From a virus: a stretch of 23,301 nucleotides of DNA. The notes below the pieces were generated by a model. The model was not told where the DNA came from. It was given only the letters and a program-made list of their open reading frames with translations, and made no database searches. Numbering within the stretch: the first letter of the stretch is position 1; every line of letters begins with the position of its first letter. A program made the translations under genes and the position numbers. This document shows, in pieces, positions 2,750-22,021 of the stretch. The DNA lies in the IMG/VR virus record IMGVR_UViG_3300031215_000072, positions 1-23,301 of that record; one strand, written 5' to 3'.

Positions 2750-2775
2750 TATTAATAACAAATAACAATAATATT

Positions 2776-3105: not shown

Positions 3106-3109
3106 ATAT

Positions 3110-3730: not shown

Positions 3731-3731
3731 T

Positions 3732-4040: not shown

Positions 4041-4041
4041 T

Positions 4042-4815: not shown

Positions 4816-4834
4816 TAAAATATTATCAAGAAGT

Positions 4835-4863
4835 TTGAGATTAAATTTTAAAAGAGTTATAAT
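4835..4863 (+). promoter_or_regulatory. Near-consensus promoter of the fibre operon
   Basis: TTGAGA (4835-4840), a 17-bp spacer and a perfect TATAAT (4858-4863). The predicted +1 is at about 4870, leaving a 12-nt leader (ACAACAACCATT) with no Shine-Dalgarno sequence before the ATG at 4882. The TATAATAAA and ACACAAC elements recur at the promoter at 15276-15304. Confidence 0.75.
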
Positions 4864-4881
4864 AAATACACAACAACCATT

Positions 4882-5823: not shown

Positions 5824-5824
5824 T

Positions 5825-7480: not shown

Positions 7481-7490
7481 TAATAGTATT

Positions 7491-7718: not shown

Positions 7719-7721
7719 ATT

Positions 7722-8741
7722 ATGAACATATTTAAAAAACAAAAAGGTACAGGAGCATTAGCAGACACAAGACCTCTTTCTGAAGTTGCAAAAGACTATC
7801 ACTTGAGTGAGATTGTAAGTTCTGTTTCTGAAGTATTATGGGAAGAAAAAAAAGAATGGAAAACTTACCCTATTTATAACCAGAACGGAAGTGGTTCCTG
7901 CGTAGCTCAAACAGTATCTAAAATGCTCGGTATCATGTACGGACAGAAGTTTGGAACATACATACCATTTTCAGCAACACACGTCTATCAAAGACGATCT
8001 AATGCCCCGTCAGGAGGAATGATTGGTAATGATGCAGGGAATATTGCTCGAGAAGGAGTGACTTTGGAGTCATTGGTAAATAGCCAAGACATGACTGATA
8101 AAGAAATGGATGCAGTACCTATTGAAGAATACAAAAAGAAAGTAGGTGAAGTATTTAAAGCAGATACTTTTGTTCAATTAAAAACAAAAAGCATTGATGA
8201 TATTGCTTCCACTATTCAAAAAACAGGAAAGCCTGTAATGGTTTGGTATTATTTCAACCACGATGAATGGAAAGAAACACCAAAGATTAAAAGATATGTA
8301 CAACCTTATTCACCAAGTACTTCAAGACATTCAGTAACAGCAGTAGACTTTATTCTTATCAAAGGAAAAAAGCATCTTGTTATTGATGACTCATGGGGAA
8401 CACGTTATGGTAAAAGAGGTCAACGATTTATTTCAGAGGAGTTTCACAACACAAGAAACTTCTACGCGATGTATTTTACTAAGTTTGATTTTGAAGCAAC
8501 TGACCCTGATTATGTTCCAATAACAAAATTTATAGGACCTTTTGTTTTTGGTATAAAAAGTGGTTCAACAGTAGTATTACAGAACTTTCTTAAATCAAGA
8601 GGATTCTTTCCAAACAATGTAGAATCTACTGGGTACTTTGGATCAATAACCAAAAGATCAGTAATTAAGTTTCAATTATCAAGAGGACTTGTAGGGGACG
8701 GAATTGTCGGCCCCAACACATTAAAAGAACTAAACAAATAA
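7722..8741 (+). CDS. Papain-like (C1) cysteine protease with C-terminal peptidoglycan-binding domain; candidate endolysin
   Basis: 339 residues. The protease shows the papain layout: oxyanion Gln54 and nucleophile Cys60 (QNGSGSC, same six-residue spacing as papain QGSCGSC), general-base His203 (SRHSVTAVDF), and the NSWG loop as DDSWG with Asp223 in place of the usual Asn, followed by RYGKRG. A peptidoglycan-binding domain fills about 280-337 (VVLQNFLKSRG, TGYFGSITKRSV, GDGIVGPNTLKEL). No signal peptide is visible. Between a membrane/coiled-coil gene and a holin-like gene, it most likely cuts peptide cross-links in the host wall at lysis. A virion-processing protease is the alternative, though the wall-binding domain argues for lysis. 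Confidence 0.75.
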   Translation: MNIFKKQKGTGALADTRPLSEVAKDYHLSEIVSSVSEVLWEEKKEWKTYPIYNQNGSGSCVAQTVSKMLGIMYGQKFGTYIPFSATHVYQRRSNAPSGGMIGNDAGNIAREGVTLESLVNSQDMTDKEMDAVPIEEYKKKVGEVFKADTFVQLKTKSIDDIASTIQKTGKPVMVWYYFNHDEWKETPKIKRYVQPYSPSTSRHSVTAVDFILIKGKKHLVIDDSWGTRYGKRGQRFISEEFHNTRNFYAMYFTKFDFEATDPDYVPITKFIGPFVFGIKSGSTVVLQNFLKSRGFFPNNVESTGYFGSITKRSVIKFQLSRGLVGDGIVGPNTLKELNK

Positions 8742-8745
8742 GATT

Positions 8746-8928
8746 ATGCAAACAAAAAAATGGTATACAAGTAAAACAATGTGGTTTTCTATTGCTCTTG
8801 CAGGAGTAGGAATCCTTGAGGCTGTAACAAGCTCATTACAAGAATCACAAGTAAACGGAACTCTCTTAACTGTAGTAGGTCTAGTTACAGGATTATTGCG
8901 ATACATTACGTCAAAGGCTATTCAATAA
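8746..8928 (+). CDS. Two-TM holin-like protein
   Basis: 60 residues: a basic N-terminus (MQTKKWYTSK), a first hydrophobic segment at about 11-29, a short polar turn (LQESQVNG), a second hydrophobic segment at about 38-52, and a basic tail. A 'KKWYxSKTxW' start followed by two membrane helices is common in small phage proteins next to lysins. It starts four bases after the lysin gene, which supports a holin role: forming holes in the inner membrane to release or activate the lysin. Confidence 0.65.
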   Translation: MQTKKWYTSKTMWFSIALAGVGILEAVTSSLQESQVNGTLLTVVGLVTGLLRYITSKAIQ

Positions 8929-8940
8929 ACATTTATTGTA

Positions 8941-8949
8941 TGATATAAT
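8941..8949 (+). promoter_or_regulatory. Putative extended -10 promoter
   Basis: TGA-TATAAT (8941-8949) just after the holin-like gene is a perfect -10 with the extended TGn. No good -35 is visible. The predicted +1 is at about 8956, in a region with no convincing ORF, so it would start the possible small RNA described next. Confidence 0.45.
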
Positions 8950-8955
8950 AATTTA

Positions 8956-9045
8956 AGGGAGCATAAAACCTCCCTAATCTTAAATACTTCTAATTTTTTA
9001 TTTATGTTTTTATTCAGAAAAGATCTTTTGGTAGGGTCTTTTTTT
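8956..9045 (+). ncRNA. Candidate small RNA with 5' hairpin and intrinsic terminator
   Basis: From the predicted +1 (8956) the transcript begins with a hairpin, AGGGAG (8955-8960)/CTCCCT (8969-8974) with an 8-nt loop. An unstructured AU-rich stretch follows, and it ends at an intrinsic terminator (9018-9045), about 90 nt in all. The only ORF is a 16-codon one from 9004 whose end overlaps the terminator, which I do not accept. The alternative is that this is just the untranslated tail of the lysis operon plus its terminator. Confidence 0.35.
9018..9045 (+). terminator. Rho-independent terminator after the lysis cassette
   Basis: AAAAGATC (9018-9025) pairs with GGTCTTTT (9035-9042) with one G-U wobble and a 9-nt loop, followed directly by further T residues to 9045. 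It ends rightward transcription of the lysis operon or of the candidate small RNA. Confidence 0.75.
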
Positions 9046-9059
9046 GTTGCATAAATTTG

Positions 9060-9068
9060 TGGTATACT
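9060..9068 (+). promoter_or_regulatory. Extended -10 promoter of the accessory cassette
   Basis: TGG-TATACT (9060-9068) is an extended -10. The -35 position falls in the terminator T-run. The predicted +1 is at about 9075, giving a 16-19 nt leader to the ATGs at 9091/9094. A TAAATTTG (9052-9059) just upstream matches the Bacteroidota -7 consensus TAnnTTTG by letters but has no correctly placed partner. Confidence 0.55.
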
Positions 9069-9090
9069 AAGTAGGAACCTAAAAAAATAA

Positions 9091-9312
9091 ATGATGAAAA
9101 GAGAAACAATACCTGTTTGCACAATACATGACAAATTTCAAACCAGTAATGGTAAATGGCTTAATAAGTCAGAAGACTTTATATCTCATGTAGTACACAC
9201 CCACTCACAAGATTCTTATTTAATAGAAACCCCTTGTGATGAATGTGATGACCCTAAACAGTTGGATGTCTTTAGACCAATAACTGTAAACTTTAAAGAA
9301 CAGAATGATTAA
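9091..9312 (+). CDS. Small Cys/His-rich accessory protein
   Basis: 73 residues (72 if the second of the paired ATGs is used). It holds a CTIH pair near 10-13 and a CDEC pair near 50-53, spaced like a four-ligand zinc site, with NGKWLNK and a HTHSQDSYLIETP stretch between. This loosely resembles small zinc domains of the form CxxC...G.W...SHgiCp.C, but I cannot assign a function. It has its own promoter and lies 17 bp before the HNH gene. It belongs to a run of three small Cys-rich genes that looks like an accessory (moron-type) insertion between the lysis and tail genes. Confidence 0.55.
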   Translation: MMKRETIPVCTIHDKFQTSNGKWLNKSEDFISHVVHTHSQDSYLIETPCDECDDPKQLDVFRPITVNFKEQND

Positions 9313-9329
9313 TGTAACTCTTAGAAATC

Positions 9330-9575
9330 ATGAGTCGGAAATTTGGAGTATGCCCTAAATGTAAAACGGAGCAAAAATTAACAAATCACCATATATTTCC
9401 AATATGCTTTTGGGGGAAAAATGGAGACAAGGTTCTGATCTGTCGTGGATGCCATGACGATTTAGAATACTTTATAACAAGGATTGAAGGTAGAACTAGA
9501 AAAGGAAAAAGGAATCAATTACCGAGAATTTCTTATCTTAATATTTATCTTTTATTTATAGAGGGCTATTCGTAG
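9330..9575 (+). CDS. HNH endonuclease (small)
   Basis: 81 residues. The first 45 hold the signature: CPKC (8-11), KLTNHHIFP with the HH of the HNH core, then CRGCHDDLE with CxxCH completing the zinc-stabilised beta-beta-alpha-metal fold. The rest is a short basic tail. HNH proteins of this size can be nicking or homing enzymes, or packaging-associated nucleases. Far from the terminase, between lysis and tail genes, a free-standing homing-type enzyme is the better guess. The TAG stop lies inside the 3' arm of the terminator, so translation and termination are physically coupled. The start codon has a C at -1, an exception in this window. Confidence 0.75.
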   Translation: MSRKFGVCPKCKTEQKLTNHHIFPICFWGKNGDKVLICRGCHDDLEYFITRIEGRTRKGKRNQLPRISYLNIYLLFIEGYS

Positions 9576-9586
9576 CCCTTTTTTTT
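9562..9586 (+). terminator. Rho-independent terminator with TTCG loop
   Basis: AGGGCTA (9562-9568), tetraloop TTCG (9569-9572) and TAGCCCT (9573-9579), followed by a T-run to 9586. The stem is perfect. It overlaps the 3' end of the HNH gene and is followed two bases later by an extended -10 promoter. Confidence 0.9.
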
Positions 9587-9587
9587 A

Positions 9588-9596
9588 TGGTATAAT
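9588..9596 (+). promoter_or_regulatory. Extended -10 promoter, +1 predicted on the ATG
   Basis: TGG-TATAAT (9588-9596) is a perfect extended -10. With the usual six-base gap, the +1 is 9603, exactly the A of the next ATG, so the transcript would be leaderless. The -35 position is inside the preceding terminator. Confidence 0.6.
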
Positions 9597-9602
9597 TGTA
9601 GT

Positions 9603-9743
9603 ATGCCTCACAGCAAGACAATGGAAAAATGGTTACTATGTAAAAAACATGGAACTCTTTTTGATGGCAATAAAATGTTTAAATGTTTTAGATGCAGAAT
9701 TAATGATAATGAGGTCAATTTTAAGAAACCAAAAAGAATATAA
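9603..9743 (+). CDS. 46-residue zinc-ribbon-like miniprotein
   Basis: MPHSKTMEKWLLCKKHGTLF followed by KMFKCFRC and a basic tail ending PKRI. CKKH and CFRC, 15 residues apart, form a likely Cys3His zinc knuckle, and the tail is rich in Lys and Arg, so nucleic-acid binding is plausible. It has its own terminator-promoter punctuation upstream and ends 51 bp before the tail operon. The ATG at 9603 coincides with the predicted transcription start. A second in-frame ATG at 9621 would leave an 18-nt leader and a 40-residue product. The codon texture and the paired motifs support a real gene despite its size. Confidence 0.6.
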   Translation: MPHSKTMEKWLLCKKHGTLFDGNKMFKCFRCRINDNEVNFKKPKRI

Positions 9744-9752
9744 AAATATAAT

Positions 9753-9777
9753 CTATAAGTTGCTTTACATCTTATAG
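9753..9777 (+). promoter_or_regulatory. Palindromic operator-like site over the tail promoter
   Basis: CTATAAG (9753-9759) and CTTATAG (9771-9777) form a perfect 7-bp inverted repeat with an 11-bp centre. The centre contains the -35 element TTGCTT (9760-9765), and the right arm lies in the promoter spacer. This is a natural place for a repressor or activator dimer. A hairpin terminator is less likely because no T-run follows. Confidence 0.5.
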
Positions 9778-9788
9778 TCTTGTATTAT
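9760..9788 (+). promoter_or_regulatory. Promoter of the tail operon, +1 predicted on the ATG
   Basis: TTGCTT (9760-9765), a 17-bp spacer and TATTAT (9783-9788). The standard gap puts +1 at 9795, exactly the A of the ATG of the first tail gene. An alternative pairing, TTTACA (9764-9769) with TATATA (9786-9791), shifts +1 by about three bases. Either way the leader is zero or almost zero. Confidence 0.55.
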
Positions 9789-9794
9789 ATAGAT

Positions 9795-11186
9795 ATGAAT
9801 CAATTTCCACAGATAACTATTAAACATGCAATAGGAAACATATTAGAAATACCAAATCAGATAGCTTCGCGCGCATCAACTTATTTTGCCGCAGATCTTT
9901 CAGTCGGTTCAACAACAGTCTTAGCTCAAAATGCTTTTGATTTTACATCCGGAAGCATACTCCAACTATCATCAATGGGATCAGAAAATTGCGAAATTGT
10001 TGTTTCATCAGCAAATACTAATTCTCAATTTACAGTAAGTGCAACAAAAACAGCGCACACAAGGGGAGATATTATTAAAGAGATTAGTTTTGACCAAGTA
10101 GAAGTTCACAAATCTTCTACTCTTGCTGGTACCTATTCATTGCTTTCAACAAATAATTTTCAGATGACACAGATGAATACTATTGTTAATGATACAACTG
10201 GAACAACTTCTGACTTCTATAAACTACGATGGAAAAATTCTGATACCGAGGAAGTATCTTCTTTCTCTAGTCCTATTAGTGTATTGACTTATCCTGAAAA
10301 TTCAGTAGCCGAAACAATATTTCCAGTACTTTTATCAATGGGAATTTCTTCAAACGACCAAAAGATAAATACTAAATTTTTATTAAGTGCGGTAAATGAT
10401 GCTCGTAAATTTGCAAAAGCTAAAATGTACGGGTTCCGTCACGCTTGGAATCAAAAGTTCGAACACCCTCTAAAAGTATTAGCTGGAAATAACTTTGTAA
10501 ATTTGCCAGAAGACATCGACTTTGATACAACAGATCGATCACTTCTTTCAGCACGATTTATCTTTGGAGCAGTTATGTCACCATACAATCTTACTTATAT
10601 TGACAAGCGCAGCTGGAATCAACGATCATATCAATTATCAGGAAGCACTAATTCTTCTGTCGTTGCAACAAATGCGACTACAATAGACGTAGTAAATTCA
10701 GGAGACTTTGAGCCTATTGATGGATCTGGAGTTGCTTATGTCGCTACAGATTCTTTTGACCAAGAAATAATGGCAATAGGATATACTGGAGTTGACTTGG
10801 TAAATAATCAGCTTACAGGAGTTACTGGAGTTACTCGAGAAATACCTTTAGGTACAAAGATTTGGTCAAACCCTACGATAGGTCAACCTGTATTCTACAC
10901 AGTGTATGATGGTAAAATTGTATTCGAAAGAGTTCTATCAGATGCCCTGCAAGGTAATAATCTATATATTGACTACTATCAAAAACTTGAAAAAGTCACA
11001 GACTACTATCAAGTTTTAAGAGAAAACTATCGAGAAATTTATACCTTTTATTTAAGGTATGCAATAAAGTATAAGCGAGACAATACGACACCAACAAGCG
11101 ACCCTGATTTAGTTAAGTTTAATGAGTTATTAGAAGCCTTATTCGACAATCTATATACTGGTCAACCAACAACTATAATAACCTAA
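9795..11186 (+). CDS. Tail tubular protein A / head-tail connector-like protein
   Basis: 463 residues. The N-terminal half is beta-rich with Ig-like texture (about 20-165). The second half has the organisation of podovirus connector/tubular proteins: a helix with NDARKFAKAKMYG (about 200-215), LPEDIDFDTTDRS, a middle beta insert (SSVVATNATTIDVVNSGDFE, PLGTKIW), FYTVYDGKIVFE, NLYIDYYQKLEKVTDYYQ, and a C-terminal helical part (YTFYLRYAIKYKRD). Such proteins join the portal/adaptor ring to the tail. I use the ATG at 9795, not the in-frame TTG at 9780, because the TTG lies inside the promoter, upstream of the predicted transcription start. It is followed after 13 bp by the large beta-rich tail protein. 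Confidence 0.6.
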   Translation: MNQFPQITIKHAIGNILEIPNQIASRASTYFAADLSVGSTTVLAQNAFDFTSGSILQLSSMGSENCEIVVSSANTNSQFTVSATKTAHTRGDIIKEISFDQVEVHKSSTLAGTYSLLSTNNFQMTQMNTIVNDTTGTTSDFYKLRWKNSDTEEVSSFSSPISVLTYPENSVAETIFPVLLSMGISSNDQKINTKFLLSAVNDARKFAKAKMYGFRHAWNQKFEHPLKVLAGNNFVNLPEDIDFDTTDRSLLSARFIFGAVMSPYNLTYIDKRSWNQRSYQLSGSTNSSVVATNATTIDVVNSGDFEPIDGSGVAYVATDSFDQEIMAIGYTGVDLVNNQLTGVTGVTREIPLGTKIWSNPTIGQPVFYTVYDGKIVFERVLSDALQGNNLYIDYYQKLEKVTDYYQVLRENYREIYTFYLRYAIKYKRDNTTPTSDPDLVKFNELLEALFDNLYTGQPTTIIT

Positions 11187-11199
11187 TAGAAATTTAATT

Positions 11200-13836
11200 A
11201 TGTCAAATTCAATTAAAATAAAAGACCAAAAGATTCCTTATCCAACGGAAGGAATTGTTCGCACATCTTCAGTTGATGATACTGTTGCACCTGATGGATC
11301 TGTTCAGTCTGCGGTAAATGTTAACTTTGACCAAATAGGTGCAATTAAAACAAGACTAGGACTGACTGAATATGCTGACGACATTACCGGAGAAGCTGTT
11401 TCTTTTGGAACTTTTAATGGAACAGTAGAACAAGCTGGTTTTGCAAGAGTCGATAAAGCTGGAGCAACTACAATCGTAACACCTGAAGAAACAAGATCAA
11501 ATCAATGTAAATCAGTAAGACTAAATGAAAATTATGTTATGCTTTTTTACAGAGGAGACAATAACGATGGTTACGTTAGAGTCATTGAAGTTGAACCTGA
11601 TACTGGAGTTGTAACAACACTAGATGAACCTTTTGAATTTGATACTTCTGACTTAGAAGAAATTGATGCTGTACATCACAATAGCTTTGGTTCTTTTGAA
11701 CATGTACTTGTTACTTGGGGAGGAGGAACTGGTAATGGTCAAGTTGTCGCACAAATTTTTAGATTTTCAGTTACAGGAGGTAGCGTACAAAAAGTGGGGT
11801 CGCCTCATATAATTTATAATGCAGACAAAGGAGGTTATCTTTCTTTAAAAAAATATGATGCCAGTAATTATGTTTTTGTTTACTCAAGACTAGATTCTAC
11901 TGATAACAATAATCTTACAATTCTTCAAGTCGATGGTTCTTATGCTGTTTCACAACCGGGAAATACATTAACAGAAACAAATAATAATGAAATGTATTTC
12001 TTTAATAACTTAGAAGTTTTAGGAGATGGTACAAATAAATTTATAAACTTTACAACAAATAATAATTCGACAACTACCTCTGCATATGAAATAAATACAT
12101 CTAACTGGAATATATCACAAGTTGGAAACCGGTTAATTCAAACAGGTTCTTTCAGTGATTTTTCTAGTTCCTCATTGTTTGATGGAGAAAATGTTATATT
12201 TTTTAATAGGTATCTCGATTCAGGAGTACAGATTTATAATGTAAACCCTTCCAACTCAAATGTAACGACACTCTCAACGAGAACAATATTTGATGAAATT
12301 CCAACTACTGATTTTTCTTGTGTGTCTATGGGTGATGGCAAAAGCTTTGTAAATTTTTGGTCAAGAAGGACTCAAGGACGTATTCCTAGTTCAGGGTATG
12401 TACAATTATTTAATGTTAATTTATCTACATATAAAGTAGAACTTGTTTTAACACCTCAAAACTTTGCGGTATCAGATGCAAATCACTGCGCTGCATTATT
12501 AAATGACAATACTATTATTGATTTTTTTAGAACTGAAGTTGGAGCAAATGAAGAATTTGGTGCTGTTTCATTATTTAAAACACAAGGGTCTTTGCTAAAA
12601 ACAAATACATTATATGTACAACAAGAGAATGGAGATGTTCTCACCACAGAAGGGACTTCATGGACGACAAGAAGGACAGGATTATTTACAGCAGGAAAAG
12701 CTCGATTCATGCAATTCTTAAATTATGTTTGGATGGTAAATGGTAATTCTTCAATAGGAGATGACGTTAAAACATCTAACGGAGGAGCTTTTGGTACAGA
12801 TCTTGTTCCTGATAACTTCCCAAAAGGAGACTTTATTCAAGGAGGGTTTGAAGGTCGAGTGTGGGTAGCAGATAGTCTTAACGATGTTATTTATTTTACT
12901 GACATTGTTCAGTTTACTCCACCTTACACTTATCGTTTAACCTACGACCCTGATGTAAACTTCATTAAAAACTTTTCACCTCAAGATGGCCAAACCATTA
13001 CAGGGTTTATCACAACACCAAGAGCGTTACTATTATTTAAACAAAATAGTATATATCGTATCTATGGATCTTTTAATGTTGATGCTTATCCTGCCTATAA
13101 TGTTGGAACCTATTCTGAAGAATCAATCGTACAAACTAAGAAAGGATTATTCTTTCACCATTCGTCAGGATTCTACAAGTTTAATTACGGAGGGGAACCT
13201 GTTGAGATTTCTCGTACTATAAATGATTTTGTTAAAGCTATTCCTCGAGCATACTATGAAAAAGTAGCAGGAGTGTTTGACGGATCTGATGCAATACTTT
13301 GGTCAGTGGGACCACTTACTGTTGAAGGAGTTAGCTACAGCAACGCGGTAATGAGATACACTATCTCTACACAAGTATGGACTGTATACAACTATGAAGG
13401 AAATAATATTAAAGCCCTCGTAAAATACGATGATGGAACAAATCTAAATATTATAATGGGAACAAACGAAGGTAAAATTAACAAAATGGATAGTGGATTT
13501 AATGACCTTGGAGAATTATTTAGTTTTGAAATGATTGATCGATGGCGATCATACAGTCCTATGTATGCTGACGAAGAAAAAATGGTTGGATTTAATGTCT
13601 ATAATGAAAACGCAGCTGGAACACTTTTACAATATCAAAATAAAAAACAAAATTCTAATAAATGGTCAACAATTGGAAGTGTAACAGAAAAAAGCAATTG
13701 TCTATTCTCTGGTTTTGATACTGAAATTGATAATGTTTCAAGGTTAAGACTTGCTGGTACAACAAAAGGTGACCCAATAGTTATTCATGGTATTGAAGTT
13801 CTTCGTGTAGATATTGAAGGATATAATCTAAACTAA
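11200..13836 (+). CDS. Large beta-rich tail protein (stabilisation / tail tubular B-like)
   Basis: 878 residues, almost wholly beta. The start (PDGSVQSAVNVNFDQIGAIK then TRLGLTEY) has the 'N-v-x-F-D-x-x-G-A-x-x-x-R-x-G' signature at the N-terminus of podoviral tail stabilisation and tail tubular B-like proteins. A long series of propeller-like blades fills about 60-460. The second half keeps the typical sequence GRVWVADSLNDVIYFTD, QTITGFITTPRALLLFKQ, SIYRIYG, GLFFHHSSGFYKF, VEISRTINDFV and TQVWTVYN. It probably forms the tail tube/hub below the connector. It is translated with the connector (13 bp upstream) and the fibre (2 bp downstream). Confidence 0.7.
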   Translation: MSNSIKIKDQKIPYPTEGIVRTSSVDDTVAPDGSVQSAVNVNFDQIGAIKTRLGLTEYADDITGEAVSFGTFNGTVEQAGFARVDKAGATTIVTPEETRSNQCKSVRLNENYVMLFYRGDNNDGYVRVIEVEPDTGVVTTLDEPFEFDTSDLEEIDAVHHNSFGSFEHVLVTWGGGTGNGQVVAQIFRFSVTGGSVQKVGSPHIIYNADKGGYLSLKKYDASNYVFVYSRLDSTDNNNLTILQVDGSYAVSQPGNTLTETNNNEMYFFNNLEVLGDGTNKFINFTTNNNSTTTSAYEINTSNWNISQVGNRLIQTGSFSDFSSSSLFDGENVIFFNRYLDSGVQIYNVNPSNSNVTTLSTRTIFDEIPTTDFSCVSMGDGKSFVNFWSRRTQGRIPSSGYVQLFNVNLSTYKVELVLTPQNFAVSDANHCAALLNDNTIIDFFRTEVGANEEFGAVSLFKTQGSLLKTNTLYVQQENGDVLTTEGTSWTTRRTGLFTAGKARFMQFLNYVWMVNGNSSIGDDVKTSNGGAFGTDLVPDNFPKGDFIQGGFEGRVWVADSLNDVIYFTDIVQFTPPYTYRLTYDPDVNFIKNFSPQDGQTITGFITTPRALLLFKQNSIYRIYGSFNVDAYPAYNVGTYSEESIVQTKKGLFFHHSSGFYKFNYGGEPVEISRTINDFVKAIPRAYYEKVAGVFDGSDAILWSVGPLTVEGVSYSNAVMRYTISTQVWTVYNYEGNNIKALVKYDDGTNLNIIMGTNEGKINKMDSGFNDLGELFSFEMIDRWRSYSPMYADEEKMVGFNVYNENAAGTLLQYQNKKQNSNKWSTIGSVTEKSNCLFSGFDTEIDNVSRLRLAGTTKGDPIVIHGIEVLRVDIEGYNLN

Positions 13837-13838
13837 TT

Positions 13839-15284
13839 ATGGAAAATAATGAAGGAAAATTAAATAGAAATTTATACAAAGAAGATAGAACCTCTCCTGA
13901 CGAGAGATCTGTTTCTCTTTCTATAAACGAAAACGATAAAAAAAACCAAGACTTTCCTGAAAGTGGAGAAGTTATTTCTGGTAGTGTTATCACTGATTCA
14001 ATTATTCAAACGTCAGGAGGGCCAAATCGTATAGAACTAGAGGGAAACGATTTATCTTTTCATGATGATACAACAAGTGCAAACGGAAAGGTAACAGGAG
14101 ACACCTCTCGTATTAATTTTACTCACTCATCTGCTGATAAAAAAGAAGGTTTTGTTTTTGAAAAAAGAGCTTCTCTCTATGCTACTTACGACAATGTACT
14201 TTCTATTTTTGCCTTGCCACCAAAAACTGATAAGAATTATAACTACATGTTTTTAGGGAGAAATGGGAGAAGTGATGCTTCAGGTAGTCGTGACGCTAAT
14301 CTTACATTTCTTGGTATTAATGTTAATAGAAATTCTTCGTTAGGGTCACCCAGTAGTTCAGACACCTCACAACAACAAGCTCAAAAAAGCTTAAACGGTA
14401 AATTTCAAGTTGAATACTCTCAAGATGGAGAATTAAATAATTCAATAATGTTTGCAGGTCTTCCAACACAATCATTATTTCCTTCATTAGGGACTGGATT
14501 TTCTTCATACATGTCATGTGGTGATGGAGGGATTTCAGGAATAGGTAGTAGGTATATAGACCCTGTAACTAAAATTGTAGGAACTGCTTTAATTTTTTAT
14601 GTAATAGCTTCTAGTGACCCAGAAGAATTTGCTCAAATATATACAGGTGGAACAATACTCCCTAATGAAAATGGAAAACTTGACTTAGGTTCATCCTCTA
14701 TGAAGTTTAGGAATATATATGCAACAAACTTTGAAGTAGCAAACTTTGCAATAGATAATTTGGACGTAACTAATAGCCTTACTGTAAAAGATTTAACTGT
14801 TAGTGATGACATAATGCCTGACAGTGACGAATCAATAGACATAGGTTCTTCTTCAACTAAGTTTAGAAATATCTATGCAGAGGATATTGAAGTAGATAAC
14901 TTAGAAGTAGACAACAACCTTAGTGTAAAAGATTTAACTGTTAGTGATGACATAATGCCTGATGATGACGGATCAATAGATATTGGTTCTTCTTCAAGAA
15001 AGTTTCGAAACTTCTACGGAAGTGTGGTTGCTTGTCCCTTACCTACAATACCTAACGCGCTAGAAGTTCTTGAAAGAGTTCCCGAACCAACAACAGTTGG
15101 AGACAGAGGACACTACGGAAAAGACAGATTGTATTTCGATGATATTACCTTCCCTAAAGAAGTTTTACATGACACAGGAGATGGAGTAATGGATATTGAA
15201 CATACTAATATGTTAGGGTTTTTACTCAAAGCAGTAATAGAATTAAAAGATAATCTAAAAGTCTTAGAAGATAAATTGAAATAA
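13839..15284 (+). CDS. Tail fibre with GSSS-F-R-N-I-Y repeats and C-terminal coiled coil
   Basis: 481 residues. A charged N-terminus leads into a beta-rich shaft. Three repeats begin near residues 281, 333 and 380 (LDLGSSSMKFRNIYA, IDIGSSSTKFRNIYA, IDIGSSSRKFRNFYG). This 'iGsss.kfrniYa' motif is typical of phage fibre/collar proteins leading to a chaperone domain. The end (LEVLERVPEP, then HTNMLGFLLKAVIELKDNLKVLEDKL in outline) is like the trimerising helices after an S74-type intramolecular chaperone, but the catalytic part is not clear. The gene starts two bases after the previous stop. A perfect TATAAT at 13822-13827 lies 11 bases before the ATG but lacks a -35. Confidence 0.65.
   Translation: MENNEGKLNRNLYKEDRTSPDERSVSLSINENDKKNQDFPESGEVISGSVITDSIIQTSGGPNRIELEGNDLSFHDDTTSANGKVTGDTSRINFTHSSADKKEGFVFEKRASLYATYDNVLSIFALPPKTDKNYNYMFLGRNGRSDASGSRDANLTFLGINVNRNSSLGSPSSSDTSQQQAQKSLNGKFQVEYSQDGELNNSIMFAGLPTQSLFPSLGTGFSSYMSCGDGGISGIGSRYIDPVTKIVGTALIFYVIASSDPEEFAQIYTGGTILPNENGKLDLGSSSMKFRNIYATNFEVANFAIDNLDVTNSLTVKDLTVSDDIMPDSDESIDIGSSSTKFRNIYAEDIEVDNLEVDNNLSVKDLTVSDDIMPDDDGSIDIGSSSRKFRNFYGSVVACPLPTIPNALEVLERVPEPTTVGDRGHYGKDRLYFDDITFPKEVLHDTGDGVMDIEHTNMLGFLLKAVIELKDNLKVLEDKLK
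14784..14962 (+). repeat. 38-bp direct repeat in the fibre gene (141-bp period)
   Basis: The 38-bp blocks at 14784-14821 and 14925-14962 are identical (coding VKDLTVSDDIMP). They belong to a 47-codon module duplication that also carries the GSSS-K-F-R-N motif. Identity at third positions indicates recent duplication or gene conversion. Confidence 0.85.
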
Positions 15285-15304
15285 TCGATTAATTATTATA
15301 TAAT
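15276..15304 (+). promoter_or_regulatory. Near-consensus promoter of the lysozyme/internal-protein operon
   Basis: TTGAAA (15276-15281), a 17-bp spacer and a perfect TATAAT (15299-15304). The predicted +1 at about 15311 leaves only a 4-nt leader before the ATG at 15315. The -35 overlaps the last codons of the fibre gene. The TATAATAAA...CACAAC sequence after it matches the promoter at 4835-4863. Confidence 0.78.
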
Positions 15305-15314
15305 AAACACAACG

Positions 15315-16337
15315 ATGGAATTATCAAACACAACATTAAGAAGGGGATCAAGAGGAGACGATGTTATCGCACTTCAGGAGTTTTTAATCTCGCAAGGATT
15401 TGACATTCAAGCTGATGGTGACTATGGACCATTAACACAAAGCGCGGTATCTGAATTCCAATCAGAAAACGGATTATCTGCCGATGGTATTTTTGGACCC
15501 AACACTCTTGCAGAGACAGAAGCAATATTAGCTGATGAACCTGCCGAAGACACTTCACAAGAAATGTTTGATCCTCAAACAGGAGAAGTTAACAATGACT
15601 TTATACCTCGAACACAAGAGGAAGCAAACCTAGTTTATAATAGTTCTGCATTGTCTCAACCTGTTTTTCAAGGGAATACTCCAGAAGACATTGAGTACGC
15701 TGCGACTACCGGAGACTTTAGTAGACTTCGTAATGAATTTGGTAAGCCTTTCTCTGATGAGATTCAACAACAATCTGTAAGAGATGCAGAAGATGCTCTT
15801 AATCCACGTTTTGAAATAGATAAGGAATTTGAAACACAACGAACTGAAGATGCTCTTAGGCAGAATCAACAGTCTTTTGACAATGCTCAACAAGACCAAG
15901 CAGATAATTTTGAAACTGATAAAGCTACACTAGATCAAAATGCTGCTAATCGAGGAGTATTATTTTCAGGGGCAAGAGATCAAAAGGAACGTAAATTGCA
16001 AAATGTATATAATACAAATCAAAATCGTATGCAACAAACAAACATGGACAATATAAGTTCTTTATCTGGAAACTTCCAACGTCAGTTTGGAGACAAGGCT
16101 GCGAATCAAAATAGACTTTCGCAGTTCTTTAGTTCAGGTTCAAATACATTTAATCCTAAAGTTGCTACAGGGGGAGCGCAAAAAAGTTCACTGTCACAAA
16201 CATACAAACCAAAGAAAACAGGATTTATAGGGACAGCTAATACAGCGCAAAGTTCTAATGTTCAACGAAGATCAGCAGACTTGTTAGCAAACAGGGCTAA
16301 TAAATTATTCAGTACAGGAGTTAATAACCAACGATAA
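15315..16337 (+). CDS. Peptidoglycan-binding virion protein with Gln/Asn-rich tail
   Basis: 340 residues. Residues 8-68 form a peptidoglycan-binding type 1 domain (RRGSRGDDVIALQEFLISQG, DYGPLTQSAVSEFQ, DGIFGPNTLAE). The rest is low-complexity, Gln/Asn/Asp-rich and helical, with the segment ANRGVLFSGARDQKERKLQ near 210-230, a motif I associate with virion proteins of many environmental phages. No catalytic domain is seen. It is the first gene of the operon with the GH24 lysozyme protein, which starts one base after its TAA, so the two may act together in crossing the wall at infection. Confidence 0.65.
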   Translation: MELSNTTLRRGSRGDDVIALQEFLISQGFDIQADGDYGPLTQSAVSEFQSENGLSADGIFGPNTLAETEAILADEPAEDTSQEMFDPQTGEVNNDFIPRTQEEANLVYNSSALSQPVFQGNTPEDIEYAATTGDFSRLRNEFGKPFSDEIQQQSVRDAEDALNPRFEIDKEFETQRTEDALRQNQQSFDNAQQDQADNFETDKATLDQNAANRGVLFSGARDQKERKLQNVYNTNQNRMQQTNMDNISSLSGNFQRQFGDKAANQNRLSQFFSSGSNTFNPKVATGGAQKSSLSQTYKPKKTGFIGTANTAQSSNVQRRSADLLANRANKLFSTGVNNQR

Positions 16338-16338
16338 T

Positions 16339-18249
16339 ATGAGTTTACGAGATCGATTTAAAAAAGCATCAATGAGGACAGTAAGAGATACTGGTATTAA
16401 TGCAATATCAACATCATTAGGTATGGGGCCAACAGGAGGAAAACTTTTAAATGAAGTATTTTCAAGAGGTCAGAAAGCACAAAATCCACAGGCACAAACG
16501 CCACAGGCACAAAGTCCTTCTAGACCTTCTCCTTTTAGTAGGGAATCAACAGATAGAATGGTTCCTAGTCAAGTACAATCTCCAGTAGCACCTAGCTCTA
16601 AGGGAGGTTCTCCTTCTTTGTTTCCAACCCAAACACAAGATGTTCAGCAACCACAAACTCCAGAACCTTTTAAAATGCCAGATAAATTTGTTAATCCAGA
16701 AACAGGATCTCCTTACGGAATAAAAGAATACGGAGAAATGATGGCAAATAAATTTTCAGGAAGTGGCCAAGGAGATATTGGGAGACTTTCTGGTGAAGCT
16801 ATTGGACTTAATAACTATCGTAATGATATTGCTTCAGGTGAAGTTGATCCATTCGGAGTTGGTAAAGATTCAGGTATTGCATATACCGCTTCAGAACTAA
16901 AAGCTATTGAAAACGCACAAGCAGGAATTTATGACCCTGCTCTTCAAAATGTATTTTCTCGATTAGAAACAGCTCAACGATCTGAATCAGATCGATTGGA
17001 AACTCAAAGAGAAGAAAAAATGCTTGAGCTTAAAAATAAATATAAATTAGGTGAAATAGATGCTCAAACAAATGCTGATATAAGAAAAGATAATGAGACA
17101 GGTGGAGGACTATCAAACTACGATGGTCCCTTTAAATCATTAATTAGTAGAACAGCAAGACTTGTTACTTCTGTATCTGGAGCAAAACAAACAAGAACAG
17201 ACTTGGCAGAGTATTTACAAAATCAAGATTATATTTCAGCTTACTCTCAAATGAGAAACACTGTTGCTCAAGATTATCTAACAGGTGAGTCAAGAACTAA
17301 ATTTATGAACAGAGCTAGGGACTTAGAGTCAATGAGCAAGTTAAGAGCTCAAGTTCAAAATTATAGTGATAATGGCGGAGATATGGGGTTGCTAGTAGGA
17401 GAATCAGAAAAAATTAAACGTAGATTAGGAATTGGTAGTGGCCAAGAGACTGAATTAGCTACAGACCTATGGGGAGCGTTTCAAGAGTATCGATCTGATA
17501 TGTCTGGTGCGGCCTTTGGAGCAGGAGAGTCAAGGGACTACGCTTCAGTTAACCCAACACTAGGAAAAAGTTTAAACTTAAATCTTTCTGTTATTGATGG
17601 AGCATTAAATAAACTTAATCGTTCTGTTGATTCAACAATGAAATCAGCTTTGCCGGGGTCAGAGGAAATCAAAGCATTAGCAGAATTTGATAATCTTTCT
17701 GAAGAAGATAAACAATTATTTATTGAAATGGAAGGAGACCCACGAGAAGATTTTAAACCCGTTGGTAATACGAAAGATTCCAATGAGCAAAACTTAAATA
17801 CAGCAATGAACTTTGTTGCACAAGAAGAAGGCTTTAGGGAAAAAGCTTACCAAGACCAAACAGGTAAATGGACCATTGGTTTTGGAACAACTAATATAAA
17901 AGGTAGAGCAGTAAAGGAAGGTGATACTTTGTCAAGACAAGAATCACAAGAAATAATGCAAGACCAAATCATAAATGATTACACTTCTTTTTCTAATAAA
18001 ATAGGAGATAACTTAACACCTAATCAATTTGCAGCGCTAACAAGTTTTGAGTATAACCTTGGATCAGGTGTGTGGAGTCAACCAAGTGGACAAGAAATAA
18101 TTAAAAAAATAAACAAAGGAGATTTTCAAGGAGCAGGAGAATTAATGCAGGCATTTAACAAATCAAAAAACTCAACGACAAGAGAACTTGAGTTTAACAG
18201 GGGCTTAGCAAATAGGAGAAGTAAAGAAGCTCAATTATTAGTAACCTAA
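16339..18249 (+). CDS. Virion protein with C-terminal GH24 (T4-type) lysozyme domain
   Basis: 636 residues. The first ~110 are disordered and Gln/Pro/Ser-rich (NPQAQTPQAQSP). Residues ~180-480 are helical and unassigned. From about 489 there is a T4-type lysozyme with the catalytic triad at exact T4 spacing: Glu497 (EEGFREKAYQD), Asp506 and Thr512 (WTIGFGTT), then LTPNQFAALTSFEYNLGSG and NRGLANRRSKE near the end. It cleaves the MurNAc-GlcNAc bond. The long N-terminal part and the neighbours indicate a particle-borne lysin that opens the wall during DNA entry, separate from the protease lysin of the lysis cassette. Confidence 0.8.
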   Translation: MSLRDRFKKASMRTVRDTGINAISTSLGMGPTGGKLLNEVFSRGQKAQNPQAQTPQAQSPSRPSPFSRESTDRMVPSQVQSPVAPSSKGGSPSLFPTQTQDVQQPQTPEPFKMPDKFVNPETGSPYGIKEYGEMMANKFSGSGQGDIGRLSGEAIGLNNYRNDIASGEVDPFGVGKDSGIAYTASELKAIENAQAGIYDPALQNVFSRLETAQRSESDRLETQREEKMLELKNKYKLGEIDAQTNADIRKDNETGGGLSNYDGPFKSLISRTARLVTSVSGAKQTRTDLAEYLQNQDYISAYSQMRNTVAQDYLTGESRTKFMNRARDLESMSKLRAQVQNYSDNGGDMGLLVGESEKIKRRLGIGSGQETELATDLWGAFQEYRSDMSGAAFGAGESRDYASVNPTLGKSLNLNLSVIDGALNKLNRSVDSTMKSALPGSEEIKALAEFDNLSEEDKQLFIEMEGDPREDFKPVGNTKDSNEQNLNTAMNFVAQEEGFREKAYQDQTGKWTIGFGTTNIKGRAVKEGDTLSRQESQEIMQDQIINDYTSFSNKIGDNLTPNQFAALTSFEYNLGSGVWSQPSGQEIIKKINKGDFQGAGELMQAFNKSKNSTTRELEFNRGLANRRSKEAQLLVT

Positions 18250-18257
18250 AAAATATT

Positions 18258-19910
18258 ATGCAACAGCAAAATGAAAGCTTATCACAAAAGCTAGATCGAT
18301 TCAAAAAAAATAAATCAAATACATCTGGTAGTAATGCAAATAAAAGCATGAGTGAAAGAATGGCTTCTTTTAAATCTACAAAAAATCCGCCAAAGGCTAC
18401 TGGCCCTCTTAAAAAAGACAGAGGAATGGTAACTAATTTTGCTACTGATATGTTAAAAACTCCAGCTAGAGTTGCTACTAACGTCGTTGGGGCAGGTAAG
18501 GAAGCATTAAATTTATTTGATAATTTATCTGGTAAAGAAAGTAGATTTAGTAAAGAAGATATTCAAAACAATCAACCTTTTTCTGGTAACTTACTAGGAG
18601 AAGTAAAAGGAGTTGGAGTAGAAGATGGTGGAGGATTATCAGGGGCTAACCTAAAAGATTCATTAGGTGTAGGTCTTGAAGCTGCTTCGTATACACCAAT
18701 AGGTAGAGGTGCTTCTCTACTAGGAAAAACAGCACAAACAGCAGCTAGAGGAAGAAGTGCTGCAGGAGGCGGAGTTAGAGGATTCTTAAAAAGACAAGTT
18801 CCTCTTGCTCGAGAAGGAGGACTTAGTAGTTTATTTGGGCAAGGAGGTAGATCTGTACAAGAAGGGGATAGTTTGTCAGAAGGTCTAAAGAAAACAGTAG
18901 GATCAACAGTAGCAGGTACATTAGGAGGTCCAGTGTTAGGAGCAGCAGCAAGGACAGCAGGTAATTTTTTACCAAAAAGACTATTCATGGGAGCTGACGA
19001 TGCTGCAAACGTAAGAAACACTAACATTAATACTAAAAATACCGCTAAGTTTACAAAAGAAATGGAAGAAGTTGCAGAATCAATTTACCCTAATATTAGT
19101 AAAGCTGAAAAAGCAACTATTACAAAAAAAGATACTACAAGTTCTATCTTTGGAAGTAAAACAAGCGCTGACTTTATAAACGATCCAAAAACAAAAGAAG
19201 TAATTGAGGCTGTTTATGATTTACCTGAAGATATTAAAATAAACTCAAAAGATACTTGGGGATTAAAAGATCAGAAAATAACACAAGGTATAAATCGTCA
19301 AGATCAAAATATATTAGAGTTAATTGATAGACCAGAAATAATAAAATCAACTACTTTTGATAAAAAAGATATGAGGGAATTTTTAGATAAAAAAGTTCTT
19401 AATTTAATCCGCGGTGAATTTGGTGAAAATTCTGAAATGTATAGAAAAACATTAAATGGAATAGAAAATGCAATGTTTGCTGTTAAAGAATCAAATTTAA
19501 AAGGTAGTCATTTAGCTAGAAGGGAATTTGATAGAATATTTAAAGAGCTTAATCCTCAAGCATTTAAAGAAACTCCAAACAGTTTTGGTGAATTAAGTCA
19601 GCACGCAACAGACGTTACAAAAGTATGGAGAGCTATTCGTAATGGTATGAATGAGTTTAACTTTAATCTTGTTCCTGCTGATAATCCTTACCGAAGTTTA
19701 TTAAGAAACGAACATTTACTTCTAAGAGCTAAAACTGAACTTAATAAACGAAGTACAAAAGAGCTTGGAAAAGATGCGTTTGATAGAAAGATGGATAAAA
19801 ATAGACTTCTAAAAAGAGCTGTTGATGGTGTTACTACAGGAGGGACAATCTATGTAGCTTCAAGATTGTTTGGAAGAAATGGTGGATCAGCAGGTAATAA
19901 CTCAAACTAA
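18258..19910 (+). CDS. Internal / ejection-type virion protein (putative)
   Basis: 550 residues, no recognised family. The N-terminus is basic and polar (KLDRFKKNKSNTSGSNANKS). Residues ~60-260 are Gly/Ala/Ser-rich with weakly hydrophobic stretches (GSTVAGTLGGPVLGAAARTA) that could enter membranes. Residues ~265-520 are charged and helical, and a hydrophobic C-terminal segment (VTTGGTIYVASRLF) ends in a Gly/Ser/Asn tail. A large protein with soluble and membrane-seeking parts, last in the late operon after a virion lysozyme, fits an ejected internal core protein. The ORF ends directly at the bidirectional terminator. Confidence 0.5.
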   Translation: MQQQNESLSQKLDRFKKNKSNTSGSNANKSMSERMASFKSTKNPPKATGPLKKDRGMVTNFATDMLKTPARVATNVVGAGKEALNLFDNLSGKESRFSKEDIQNNQPFSGNLLGEVKGVGVEDGGGLSGANLKDSLGVGLEAASYTPIGRGASLLGKTAQTAARGRSAAGGGVRGFLKRQVPLAREGGLSSLFGQGGRSVQEGDSLSEGLKKTVGSTVAGTLGGPVLGAAARTAGNFLPKRLFMGADDAANVRNTNINTKNTAKFTKEMEEVAESIYPNISKAEKATITKKDTTSSIFGSKTSADFINDPKTKEVIEAVYDLPEDIKINSKDTWGLKDQKITQGINRQDQNILELIDRPEIIKSTTFDKKDMREFLDKKVLNLIRGEFGENSEMYRKTLNGIENAMFAVKESNLKGSHLARREFDRIFKELNPQAFKETPNSFGELSQHATDVTKVWRAIRNGMNEFNFNLVPADNPYRSLLRNEHLLLRAKTELNKRSTKELGKDAFDRKMDKNRLLKRAVDGVTTGGTIYVASRLFGRNGGSAGNNSN

Positions 19911-19938
19911 AAAACACATTATATAATGTGTTTTTTTT
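19911..19938. terminator. Bidirectional terminator at the convergent junction
   Basis: A perfect 24-nt palindrome (19911-19934; half-site AAAACACATTAT) is followed by T8 (19931-19938) rightward and flanked by A6 (19909-19914), which reads as T6 leftward. It can stop both the late rightward operon and the leftward operon that meet here. Confidence 0.9.
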
Positions 19939-20051: not shown

Positions 20052-20276
20052 TTAGTGTTCGAATACAACAAGTGCCAAAATATTTAATTCAGTTGCGATT
20101 TCTTCCGCTGTTTTTATTTTGAACTCTTTTGTTATTATGTCTTCTGCTCTTTGTACCATAGCTGAATCAACCTCTATGTTTTTTTCTGCTGCAACTTGTG
20201 AAACAATTATCCCAAGCTCAAAAGCTAGGAGATTTTTTTGATTGTCGTTAATTAGGTTTTTTATATATTTAATCAT
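20052..20276 (-). CDS. Small helical protein of unknown function
   Basis: 74 residues, mixed charged and hydrophobic, predicted helical (IKYIKNLINDNQKNLLAFEL, then AEDIITKEFKIKTAEEIATE). No family recognised. Its ATG overlaps the TGA of the nuclease gene (ATGA), the only TGA-terminated complete gene in the window, so translation is probably coupled to the nuclease. A partner or regulator of that nuclease is possible. Confidence 0.6.
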   Translation of the reverse strand: MIKYIKNLINDNQKNLLAFELGIIVSQVAAEKNIEVDSAMVQRAEDIITKEFKIKTAEEIATELNILALVVFEH

Positions 20277-21010
20277 ATTTCTTTTATAAAGTTCTGATAA
20301 GCTTCACTGATTTCTTCTGCTGTTTTTACGATAAGGTCTTCCATTCGTTCGATCTCATTCTCGTCAAACTCTCGACGGAAAGACTTTACTCGACCTGTAA
20401 CTTCTACTTGTGGTTTGTTTTGAACCAAGCCTGATTGTTTTTCTTTTTTAGTGTCTCTCGTTTCTATCCAATCAAGGTAACATTCTTGTGGCATCTCACC
20501 AGTACTCCATTTGAGCGCTGTAGCGTAGAAAACCAGTTGGTCATGTTTCTGTACCTTTGATCTAGTCCAAGGTATCTTACCGGTCTTGTACTCCCTGAAA
20601 ACGTTTGCTGATACGTCTATAGTTTCTACTTTATTATAGCTGTCTATAAAAGATAGTATAGGTACATTCTTCACAAGGCATTGTATCTTGTGTTCAGGGG
20701 TGTCGTAGGTCTCAAGATCAGGAATAAGGTTATGGTGTTGCTCGTTCTCGATAAGAGTTGCAATGTTAGATCCAAACCTTAAATACTTTGTGTTGAGCTT
20801 TCTCCCTCCTTCGAAATACTCACGTCTGTATCTGTCTTTACTACTTTTCCATAAGAGCAGTTGGGACCATGAAAGATGGGGCTTTGGAAGGAGGAAAGAG
20901 CCATCGCCTCTTGGCCAGTCTGGAAAATCTGGTTTACTATAATCGACTTCATCGAATTCTGATTTAACAGGTTCTTCATTTTTAATTTCTAAGTCATTTT
21001 TTATTAACAT
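20273..21010 (-). CDS. PD-(D/E)XK exonuclease, RecB/Cas4-like family
   Basis: 245 residues. Motif order fits the RecB-type nuclease fold: LSWSQLLLWKSSKDRYRREY (46-65), the 'S-x-S-x-L' entry of such domains; LRFGSNIATLIE (77-88) as the motif I helix; ILSFIDSYN with Asp123 (motif II); REYKTGK with Glu140-Tyr-Lys142 (motif III); and HDQLVFYATAL with Gln158 and Tyr162 (the QxxxY motif). Only two cysteines (111, 177) exist, so the Cas4 iron-sulfur cluster is absent. Phage enzymes of this type degrade DNA ends for recombination or replication. The gene follows the structured noncoding element and belongs to the leftward DNA-metabolism operon. Confidence 0.78.
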   Translation of the reverse strand: MLIKNDLEIKNEEPVKSEFDEVDYSKPDFPDWPRGDGSFLLPKPHLSWSQLLLWKSSKDRYRREYFEGGRKLNTKYLRFGSNIATLIENEQHHNLIPDLETYDTPEHKIQCLVKNVPILSFIDSYNKVETIDVSANVFREYKTGKIPWTRSKVQKHDQLVFYATALKWSTGEMPQECYLDWIETRDTKKEKQSGLVQNKPQVEVTGRVKSFRREFDENEIERMEDLIVKTAEEISEAYQNFIKEI

Positions 21011-21030
21011 ATATTTGTTTCTGCATGAGC

Positions 21031-21164
21031 AGTGTGTAGGGTATCTATTCTACTGTATATATTTTCGAAATTTCTGTCAGCAAGACCTAAGTTGACCCTA
21101 GGAGGTACTACTATATCTTGATTTCTTACAGCTTATTATGCTGTTGGTATATACCCTACACACT
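21031..21164. ncRNA. 134-nt element closed by a perfect 14-bp inverted repeat (candidate structured RNA)
   Basis: AGTGTGTAGGGTAT (21031-21044) and ATACCCTACACACT (21151-21164) are perfect inverted repeats in the 170-bp noncoding gap upstream of the nuclease. Between them lie a hairpin ACAGC/GCTGT (21128-21144, 7-nt loop) and a second pairing CAAGA (21081-21085)/TCTTG (21116-21120) with inner CCTA/TAGG or ACCT/AGGT options. This gives a multibranched shape on either strand. If leftward it is the 5' leader of the nuclease mRNA. It matches no RNA family I recognise. A DNA-level role (origin, protein site) is the alternative. No target-site duplication flanks the arms. Confidence 0.5.
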
Positions 21165-21180
21165 AACCACGAGGGATAGG

Positions 21181-21312
21181 CTATTTTTTTAAGTTTCCTT
21201 GTTTAAATATTTTGTTTACATATCTAAATTCGTTTACTCTGTCTTTTGCAATATTGTTTCGTGCAATATTAAATAATTTGCGTTTTGAATTATTGTTTCT
21301 TGGTTTAGTCAT
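21181..21312 (-). CDS. 43-residue basic protein
   Basis: Leftward ORF MTKPRNNNSKRKLFNIARNN continuing IAKDRVNEFRYVNKIF and ending KQGNLKK. It is strongly basic (Lys/Arg/Asn-rich), predicted helical after residue 10, with a repeated NIA unit. Its ATG is one base after the TAA of the upstream gene (TAATATG), the junction type used six times in this window. A nucleic-acid-binding or ribosome-associated role would fit the composition, but no family is recognised. It is the last gene before the structured element. Confidence 0.55.
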   Translation of the reverse strand: MTKPRNNNSKRKLFNIARNNIAKDRVNEFRYVNKIFKQGNLKK

Positions 21313-21313
21313 A

Positions 21314-22021
21314 TTATGCTGTATTTAATTCTTTACGTTTAAGTAAACATTCTTCTAGTAATAGTGGTTTCTCTGGTTCTGTAAGATTTTTAGATCTATT
21401 TATTTGAGCTTGAAGCTGGTCAACCGCGTCGATACTCATAGCGCTTGCAATAGCTTTACTTGCTTTTGTAAATGATCGTGATTCCTCTAAACTTGCTGAT
21501 AAAGAATCGCCTTCAGATGGTTTTGAGGGTACCTGTAGTACCTCTTTTTTGGCCTCGGGAGTCGATACTTTTTCAGTCTCTTTAACTGTTTCCGCAACTT
21601 CAGTTTTTACAGGAACTTTTACTTCTTTTGCTTGCTCTTTCTTCTTAACGTCTACAACTTTTTCAGTAACAGTAACTTTTTCTTTCATAAAGCGAGGGTA
21701 AGAAGTTTTATTTTCTGCATAAGCATACGTTTTGTATAATTCCTCAATATAAGGAAGTACAAACTCATTTGCTTCTTCTAGGGTTTTAGCCTTTACAGAA
21801 ATTGTTGGCTGAATGTTTCCATAAAACATAGTTGGAATAACCGCTGTCATAGAAAATTCTAGTAATGTAACTTTTGCTTTCTTAGCTGGTGCTTTCTTAG
21901 CTGGTGCTTTCTTAGCTGGTGCTTTCTTAGCTGGTGCTTTCTTAGCTGGTGCTTTCTTAGCTGGTGCTTTCTTAGCTGGTGCTTTCTTAGCTGGTGCTTT
22001 TTTGGTAGGTTCTTTTTTCAT
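21314..22021 (-). CDS. Protein with histone-H1-like APAKK-repeat tail and unassigned phage domain
   Basis: 235 residues. After MKKEPTKK come eight perfect APAKK repeats (9-48), a basic tail like those of bacterial H1-like and HU-tail proteins, expected to bind DNA non-specifically. A compact domain follows (about 50-115: [40 protein letters not shown]), then a charged linker. The C-terminal helical motif ([20 protein letters not shown], ending [16 protein letters not shown]) occurs in many phage DNA-metabolism proteins. Among nuclease and resolvase genes, a DNA-binding recombination or replication accessory is likely. A perfect TATAAT at 22027-22032 (leftward) lies 5 nt before the ATG but has no good -35. 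Confidence 0.55.
21878..21997 (-). repeat. Eight perfect 15-bp tandem repeats (APAKK codons)
   Basis: On the leftward strand the unit GCACCAGCTAAGAAA is repeated eight times without a single change. Even synonymous third positions are identical, so the array expanded recently, probably by slippage, and its copy number is likely to vary between relatives. Confidence 0.95.

Follow-up and report, generated by a model that had tools for sequence, protein, structure and literature searches.

A structured RNA recurring in intercistronic spacers of phages and its possible role in transcript processing

A noncoding gap of 170 bp (21011-21180) in the window, which is the whole 23,301-nt stretch analysed here and the complete IMG/VR record IMGVR_UViG_3300031215_000072 of a tailed phage, was compared with the sequences of related phages. 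As judged from this comparison, the gap holds a real RNA structure, in which a long stem keeps its pairing while its sequence shifts, and by the same evidence the structure recurs in at least three phages, between different genes. As an RNA motif the element is new, and the literature searches made gave no published description of it; as a kind, structured RNAs in the spacers of phage operons have precedent. It was tentatively read (probability of roughly 40%) as a cis-acting intercistronic processing or insulator RNA, like the RNase III sites of T7 mRNA. The spacers of phage operons are usually annotated as if empty, and the element is a recurring structured RNA of phages that otherwise share little.

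Anatomy of the element in the window

The genes of the window run rightward from 287 to 19910 and leftward from about 20052 to the right end. The gap lies on the leftward side between a 43-aa ORF (21181-21312, minus strand; no match in a Pfam search), of which the stop codon stands 7 nt before the element, and the gene of a PD-(D/E)XK (RecB/Cas4-like) nuclease (20273-21010, minus strand), of which the ATG starts 10 nt past it, so that the element fills the spacer between the two. The nuclease was assigned by a profile match to PF12705 (21.3 bits, slightly below the cut-off of 22), and relatives of it were found.

The perfect 14-bp inverted repeat (21031-21044 / 21151-21164) reported in the first-pass annotation lies exactly where it was placed, as the inner part of 17-nt arms (21031-21047 / 21148-21164) with 94% complementarity. 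This core stood, but the extent did not: the whole element spans 153 nt of the minus strand (21021-21173; 5' CTCGTGGTT ... CTGCTCATGCAG 3'), with seven further pairs (P0) beyond the 14-bp stem, set off from it by a U.C mismatch, as delimited by the shared end motifs and full stems in four further copies, by the lack of a stem in 11 chance matches of the motifs and by covariation. On the minus strand, the 5' strand of the sequence-conserved outer helix P0 is CUCGUGG (21167-21173), which is identical in five copies and replaced by AUAGUUG in the sixth with pairing largely kept, and its 3' strand is UCAUGCAG (21021-21028) with a bulged C at 21023, as placed by the fold and the arm alignment. Between P0 and the inner helix P1 stands the invariant U.C mismatch (U at 21166, C at 21029), unchanged in 6/6 copies, and next to it the U at 21165 pairs with the G at 21030. 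P1 is variable in sequence and conserved in pairing (arms AGTGTGTAGGG/CCCTACACACT in the window); its 5' strand is AGUGUGUAGGGUAU (21151-21164), with nine of 11 inner pairs (those in columns 10-20 were counted) changed on both sides, and its 3' strand, identified by the inverted repeat and covariation, is AUACCCUACACACU (21031-21044). The general plan is 5' CU CGUGG / U / U-P1 ... interior ... P1'-G / C / UCAYG C AG 3'. Among the copies compared, P0 has seven pairs with the bulged C in its 3' strand and P1 has 12-18, and the closing helix amounts to 19-24 bp, or about two turns, in all of them.

The interior of the window element (21045-21150, 106 nt) holds no conserved sequence or structure and is unalignable with those of the other copies, which range from about 27 to 170 nt, so the multibranch architecture proposed earlier was not borne out. 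The internal hairpins proposed with it were not supported either: the one at 21128-21144 does form in the minimum-energy fold, but the copies have no interior pairing in common. A search for pseudoknots between the interior and its flanks gave none that was convincing in the copies with CTCGTGG.

When sequences were simulated with a first-order Markov model, none of 3000 versions of the 170-nt gap contained a perfect repeat of at least 14 bp, and 7 of 60 versions of the whole window did. As such repeats are not uncommon over a whole window, this one is striking only for its position, and conviction about it comes from the comparison with relatives. The minus strand folds at -46.4 kcal/mol (z -3.9; none of 200 shuffles was as good) and the plus strand at -43.5 kcal/mol (z -2.0). 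In the search with Rfam covariance models no family was matched at gathering or relaxed thresholds, and only generic hairpin models appeared below threshold (best score 21.9 bits against a cut-off of 86, for a generic miRNA hairpin model), which agrees with the first-pass statement that no known riboswitch, ribozyme or phage RNA was recognised in the gap.

Copies, covariation and placement

The relatives were drawn from 80 loci with related capsid genes, and the nuclease was found in 19 of the 50 records searched. A DNA search with the gap matched one relative, G002 (IMGVR_UViG_3300035698_017134), before its helicase gene and not before its nuclease; this phage carries two copies in two spacers, with P1 stems (GGTTTAGAGGG/CCCTCTAAACT and AGTTAGCTACA/TGTAGCTAACT, respectively) differing from that of the window. 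The copies of the window and G002 start with CCCTCGTGGTTRGT and finish with ACTGCTCATGCAG, and two more copies came to light by a motif scan in a second phage, G051 (IMGVR_UViG_3300035698_005309). All five copies start with CTCGTGGTT and finish with CTGCTCAYGCAG, and their stems are different and fully complementary; a mismatch-tolerant scan of 1.8 Mb of sequence returned these five only. A scan by structure alone (TTRG with P1 pairing and CTGC with P0 pairing) ranked a copy in G048 (IMGVR_UViG_3300028361_000111, with a capsid gene identical to that of the window) first, and the five known copies were among the next seven matches. This sixth and shorter copy has a window-like P1, a 27-nt loop and a different P0 that still pairs (UAGUUG/CAAUUA); because it was first noticed by the likeness of its P1 to that of the window, the P0 pairing is its independent evidence.

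Wider searches returned chance matches. BLAST of the gap against phage records gave chance pieces only; exact two-motif scans of viral contigs, at spacings of about 85-206 nt, gave the known copies and chance matches in GC-rich contigs; none of the nine matches of a motif scan of genome contigs had the stem; and among the 59 contigs with CTAACTGCTCAYGCAG in a one-motif scan the stem was present in the two true copies only. Relatives of G051 were sought through its DnaC-like gene, and none besides G051 was found. An occurrence of ACTGCTCATGCAG inside a coding gene of G002 (the 128-aa ORF upstream of its nuclease) was set aside as chance, as it has no 5' partner. The matching spacers of most relatives are without the element, which therefore comes and goes. 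The sample is small (six copies from three phage lineages), and this limits every functional claim.

For so few sequences the covariation is unusually clear. The six arm pairs align without gaps; 113 of the 114 cells of the 19-pair helix are paired (99.1%), with both-side changes in 11 of the 19 pairs; and the covariation score is 0.618, a value reached by 0 of 500 shuffled versions, which averaged 0.239, whereas slid partners scored no more than 0.106. P1 pairing was 11/11 in each of the five true copies, against 3-7 of 11 in the 11 chance occurrences of the two motifs. An absence of covariation in the stem had been named beforehand as the result that would speak against a structured RNA; both arms were found to covary across relatives, and the proposal was upheld, as was its assignment to the leftward (nuclease) strand.

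All copies are oriented with the transcription of the neighbouring genes, and in 6/6 it is the sense strand that gives the more stable fold, because G-U pairs turn into A-C mismatches on the other strand. The two ends of the element are non-equivalent (a bulged C on one side, the U.C mismatch and G-U pairs), unlike the terminal repeats of transposons. Sense orientation, sense-biased folding and non-equivalent ends together favour a function as RNA. A DNA site bound by a protein, suggested earlier, would by itself leave the strand-specific, G-U-tolerant pairing unexplained, and an origin of replication, likewise suggested, is unlikely, with up to two copies per genome in non-homologous spacers, always in transcript sense, and a GC-skew profile that is flat across the element.

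The base of the helix lies 0, 2, 3, 7 and 7 nt past the upstream stop codon in five of the six copies, and the next ATG follows 8 to about 28 A/U-rich nt past the helix in the five copies with CTCGTGG. Copy 1 of G002 has no clear gene ending directly upstream, and the G048 copy is followed only at a long distance by an ORF of at least 40 codons. An intrinsic terminator (a GC-rich hairpin with a U tract) was considered and rejected, since the stem is followed by GCAGAAACAA, GCAGTAAAAA and similar sequences and none was found at the site, and a search for a Bacteroidota-type -7 promoter in or before the element was negative.

The role was first tied to the nuclease, but the element precedes several different genes, all non-structural: the PD-(D/E)XK nuclease gene in the window, a helicase gene (PF00271) and an Acb2 homologue (PF24729, 1.7e-11) in G002, and a membrane-protein gene and an Acb2-like gene (PF24729, 3.4e-5, slightly under the cut-off) in G051. 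The two Acb2-like anti-CBASS genes (L116:4662-4904 and L118:2-217) stand directly after two element copies in two unrelated phages, and as two of the five served genes they are suggestive and not a rule. Acb2 is described as a sponge for the cyclic nucleotides of CBASS immunity (PMC12657218, PMC12043709).

The start codons are without a Shine-Dalgarno motif and the sequence upstream of them is A/U-rich, which are also the start-site traits of Bacteroidota (PMC6847099). G051 encodes a KhpA-type KH-domain RNA-binding protein (L153:14099-14332; PF13083, 2.4e-17), an unusual phage cargo, and a search for it in the records of the window, G048 and G002 was negative. The same search did not find this family in its Bacteroides control genome, so Bacteroidota are only a candidate host group. 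The window phage encodes lysozyme-type endolysins, so its host is bacterial.

Possible functions and known systems

RNase III engages about two turns of double-stranded RNA, and phage T7 carries several RNase III sites at different spacers. In the reading as a processing or insulator element, a helix of roughly two turns would join the two ends of the spacer RNA; in this helix the outer P0, with its bulged C and invariant U.C mismatch, would serve as a signature, the inner P1 would be free in sequence while paired, and the enclosed loop would be largely filler. The host RNase III, or a comparable factor reading the P0 and mismatch signature, would cut the closing helix and so separate the cistrons, of which the upstream one would obtain a structured 3' end near its stop codon and the downstream one a trimmed 5' end separated from its AUG by a few A/U-rich nucleotides. 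The comparison of copies supports the helix, the strand on which it acts in sense, its recurrence and its placement, and from there we infer transcription through the element, the cleavage and the enzyme. A disposable interior, a two-turn helix, transcript sense, a position from stop to start and several copies per genome fit a processing or insulator element. These phages encode no RNase III domain in the searches made, so the enzyme would have to be that of the host.

The likeness to the T7 sites lies in the presence of several intergenic copies per phage, oriented with transcription, and in double-stranded stems of about two turns that would here too separate cistrons, and a sense helix of this length stands between genes here, with two copies each in G002 and G051. 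The T7 sites differ in that they are compact local hairpins and have no strict 21-nt motif in common; the element has conserved ends, a free stem sequence and an interior of 27-170 nt, and its cleavage is putative. The RNase III processing stalks of rRNA precursors also close a large interior by a long-range helix, but there the interior is a functional RNA and here it is a non-conserved spacer. The c4 antisense RNA, manA, wcaG and other phage-associated RNAs are likewise structured phage RNAs found by comparison (PMC2864571), to which the element has no match in Rfam sequence or structure. The a1/a2 inverted repeat of retron msr-msd similarly places variable complementary ends around about 100 nt; a retron ncRNA was rejected, as the reverse transcriptase (PF00078) was absent from 4/4 records, which may be fragments, with positive controls. 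An archaeal bulge-helix-bulge intron was also rejected, as the lysozyme-type endolysins indicate that the host is a bacterium and no reading frames would be joined at the junctions.

Against the processing reading stand the near-identity of P0 in unrelated phages, which points to a reader of specific sequence since RNase III does not require a 21-nt motif, the different P0 of the G048 copy and the lack of a clear gene end directly before G002 copy 1. A sequence-specific RNA-binding factor would account better for the strictness of P0, and the main rival is a leader bound by such a protein, of phage or host, with P0, the U.C mismatch and the bulge as its site, P1 as a stabilizer and binding near the AUG tuning how accessory early genes are translated. 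In its favour, P0 and the flanking UU/GC stay unchanged among five copies of unrelated phages while the rest varies, G051 encodes the KhpA-type protein, and the served genes are non-structural, two of them acb2-like; against it, the P0 sequence is missing in G048, KhpA was not found in the records of the other three phages, and no protein is linked with the element in all phages. We consider such a leader unlikely, and it and the processing element can both be true.

Reinitiation or ribosome shunting, by which a ribosome ending the upstream ORF would cross the folded spacer and restart at the A/U-rich start site, appears improbable. To our knowledge, ribosome shunting is not established in bacteria. 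In the shunts of rice tungro and cauliflower mosaic viruses the stem begins 7-8 nt past the end of a short ORF and the landing site is UA-rich (PMC3291615), and the element resembles them in a stop codon 0-7 nt before the basal helix (5/6 copies), an A/U-rich landing region before the ATG and a variable enclosed part, which would be the part skipped. Those plant pararetrovirus/RTSV shunts, however, belong to eukaryotic viruses with a scanning ribosome, and the element is bacterial and stands between full genes; the spacers are very short anyway, so that the closeness of stop and start may be a trivial by-product, and neither G002 copy 1, with no notable ORF ending there, nor G048, with its distant next ORF, fits. 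A tiny non-autonomous mobile (MITE-like) element with imperfect terminal inverted repeats, inserting between genes, was judged slightly more improbable: identical ends at non-homologous sites of different phages, absence from the matching spacers of most relatives and the inverted-repeat architecture would suit it, yet stem and interior differ completely with pairing kept, the opposite of recent transposition, the ends are non-equivalent and are all that the copies share, the orientation is always transcript sense, and a Y1 transposase search of these genomes was negative. No target-site duplication flanks the element, as was noted before, and the sites differ in gene content, so that no clean empty site is demonstrable. 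A small self-cleaving ribozyme or minimal intron, with the P0/internal-loop region as its core, is highly improbable; known small ribozymes likewise have conserved nucleotides clustered at a helix junction next to stems and loops that vary, but here most of these nucleotides are paired and are mostly replaced in G048 with pairing kept, no Rfam ribozyme or intron was matched, and splicing of the ends would not join a reading frame.

A wider proposal, which we hold to be doubtful, is that the element represents a new class of mobile-looking RNA modules in phages of one little-known bacterial group. Unrelated phages would share a sequence-specific RNA signature below a stem that evolves freely, and its position ahead of accessory and anti-defence genes (acb2 twice) would let one conserved factor set their expression individually within long operons. 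The genes that follow the element include acb2, the product of which blocks CBASS immunity, and if the element is a processing or regulatory point, it would show how phages of hosts without Shine-Dalgarno sequences dose single genes within one transcript. The end motifs provide a simple search handle for metagenomes.

Other features of the window and related phages

In the window, 21314-22021 encodes a basic KKAPAK-repeat protein with a histone-H1/HC2-like N-terminus (PF07382 below cut-off), kept in relatives just upstream of the nuclease region. A perfect 14-bp palindrome (AAAAAACACATTAT/ATAATGTGTTTTTT, 19909-19936) between the converging gene blocks is probably a bidirectional terminator. 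A surface-type protein of repeated 'CSSLISLDVPDTSSLTSVGSDFM' units (5807-7480), resembling bacterial leucine-rich repeats, is perhaps a variable receptor-binding or decoration protein.

A second structured RNA was seen in related phages (L141:9362-9454, L146:9101-9187, L147:4810-4906, L150:346-437, L169:5493-5591 and L172:5259-5343, and at matching places in L140, L143, L154, L164 and L168), in most of them between ssb-like and primase genes. It has a long stem with an inner loop that can pair, over 7-10 nt, with sequence immediately upstream, which makes a covarying pseudoknot (AUGCAAC/GUUGCAU, AUGUAAC/GUUACAU, AUACUAC/GUAGUAU, AUGGCAC/GUGCCAU, CUUCGAC/GUCGAAG and others), with at least 7 complementary nucleotides in 10 of 11 cases against 19 of 110 mismatched combinations. 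The Rfam search of one copy gave only generic hairpin models below threshold, and some copies may contain a short leader ORF.

Noncoding stretches of G048 (L117:10770-10960) and G002 (L116:740-890) both carry AACGRGCTACGG and possibly belong to a further structured RNA beside the element. Arrays of short inverted and direct repeats (GGGCATAAG / TTATGTCCC; GTGTCACTTTTTG) lie in noncoding DNA upstream of the capsid block of related phages (L041, L079, L025, L024, L020, L066, L009, L049, L068 and L117:3280-3506) and are candidate iterons of an origin, of packaging or of a regulator. A spacer of G002 (L083:707-844) has a tRNA-like fold with a GTTCGACTCC T-loop and a CCCGACA end, on which ARAGORN makes no call.
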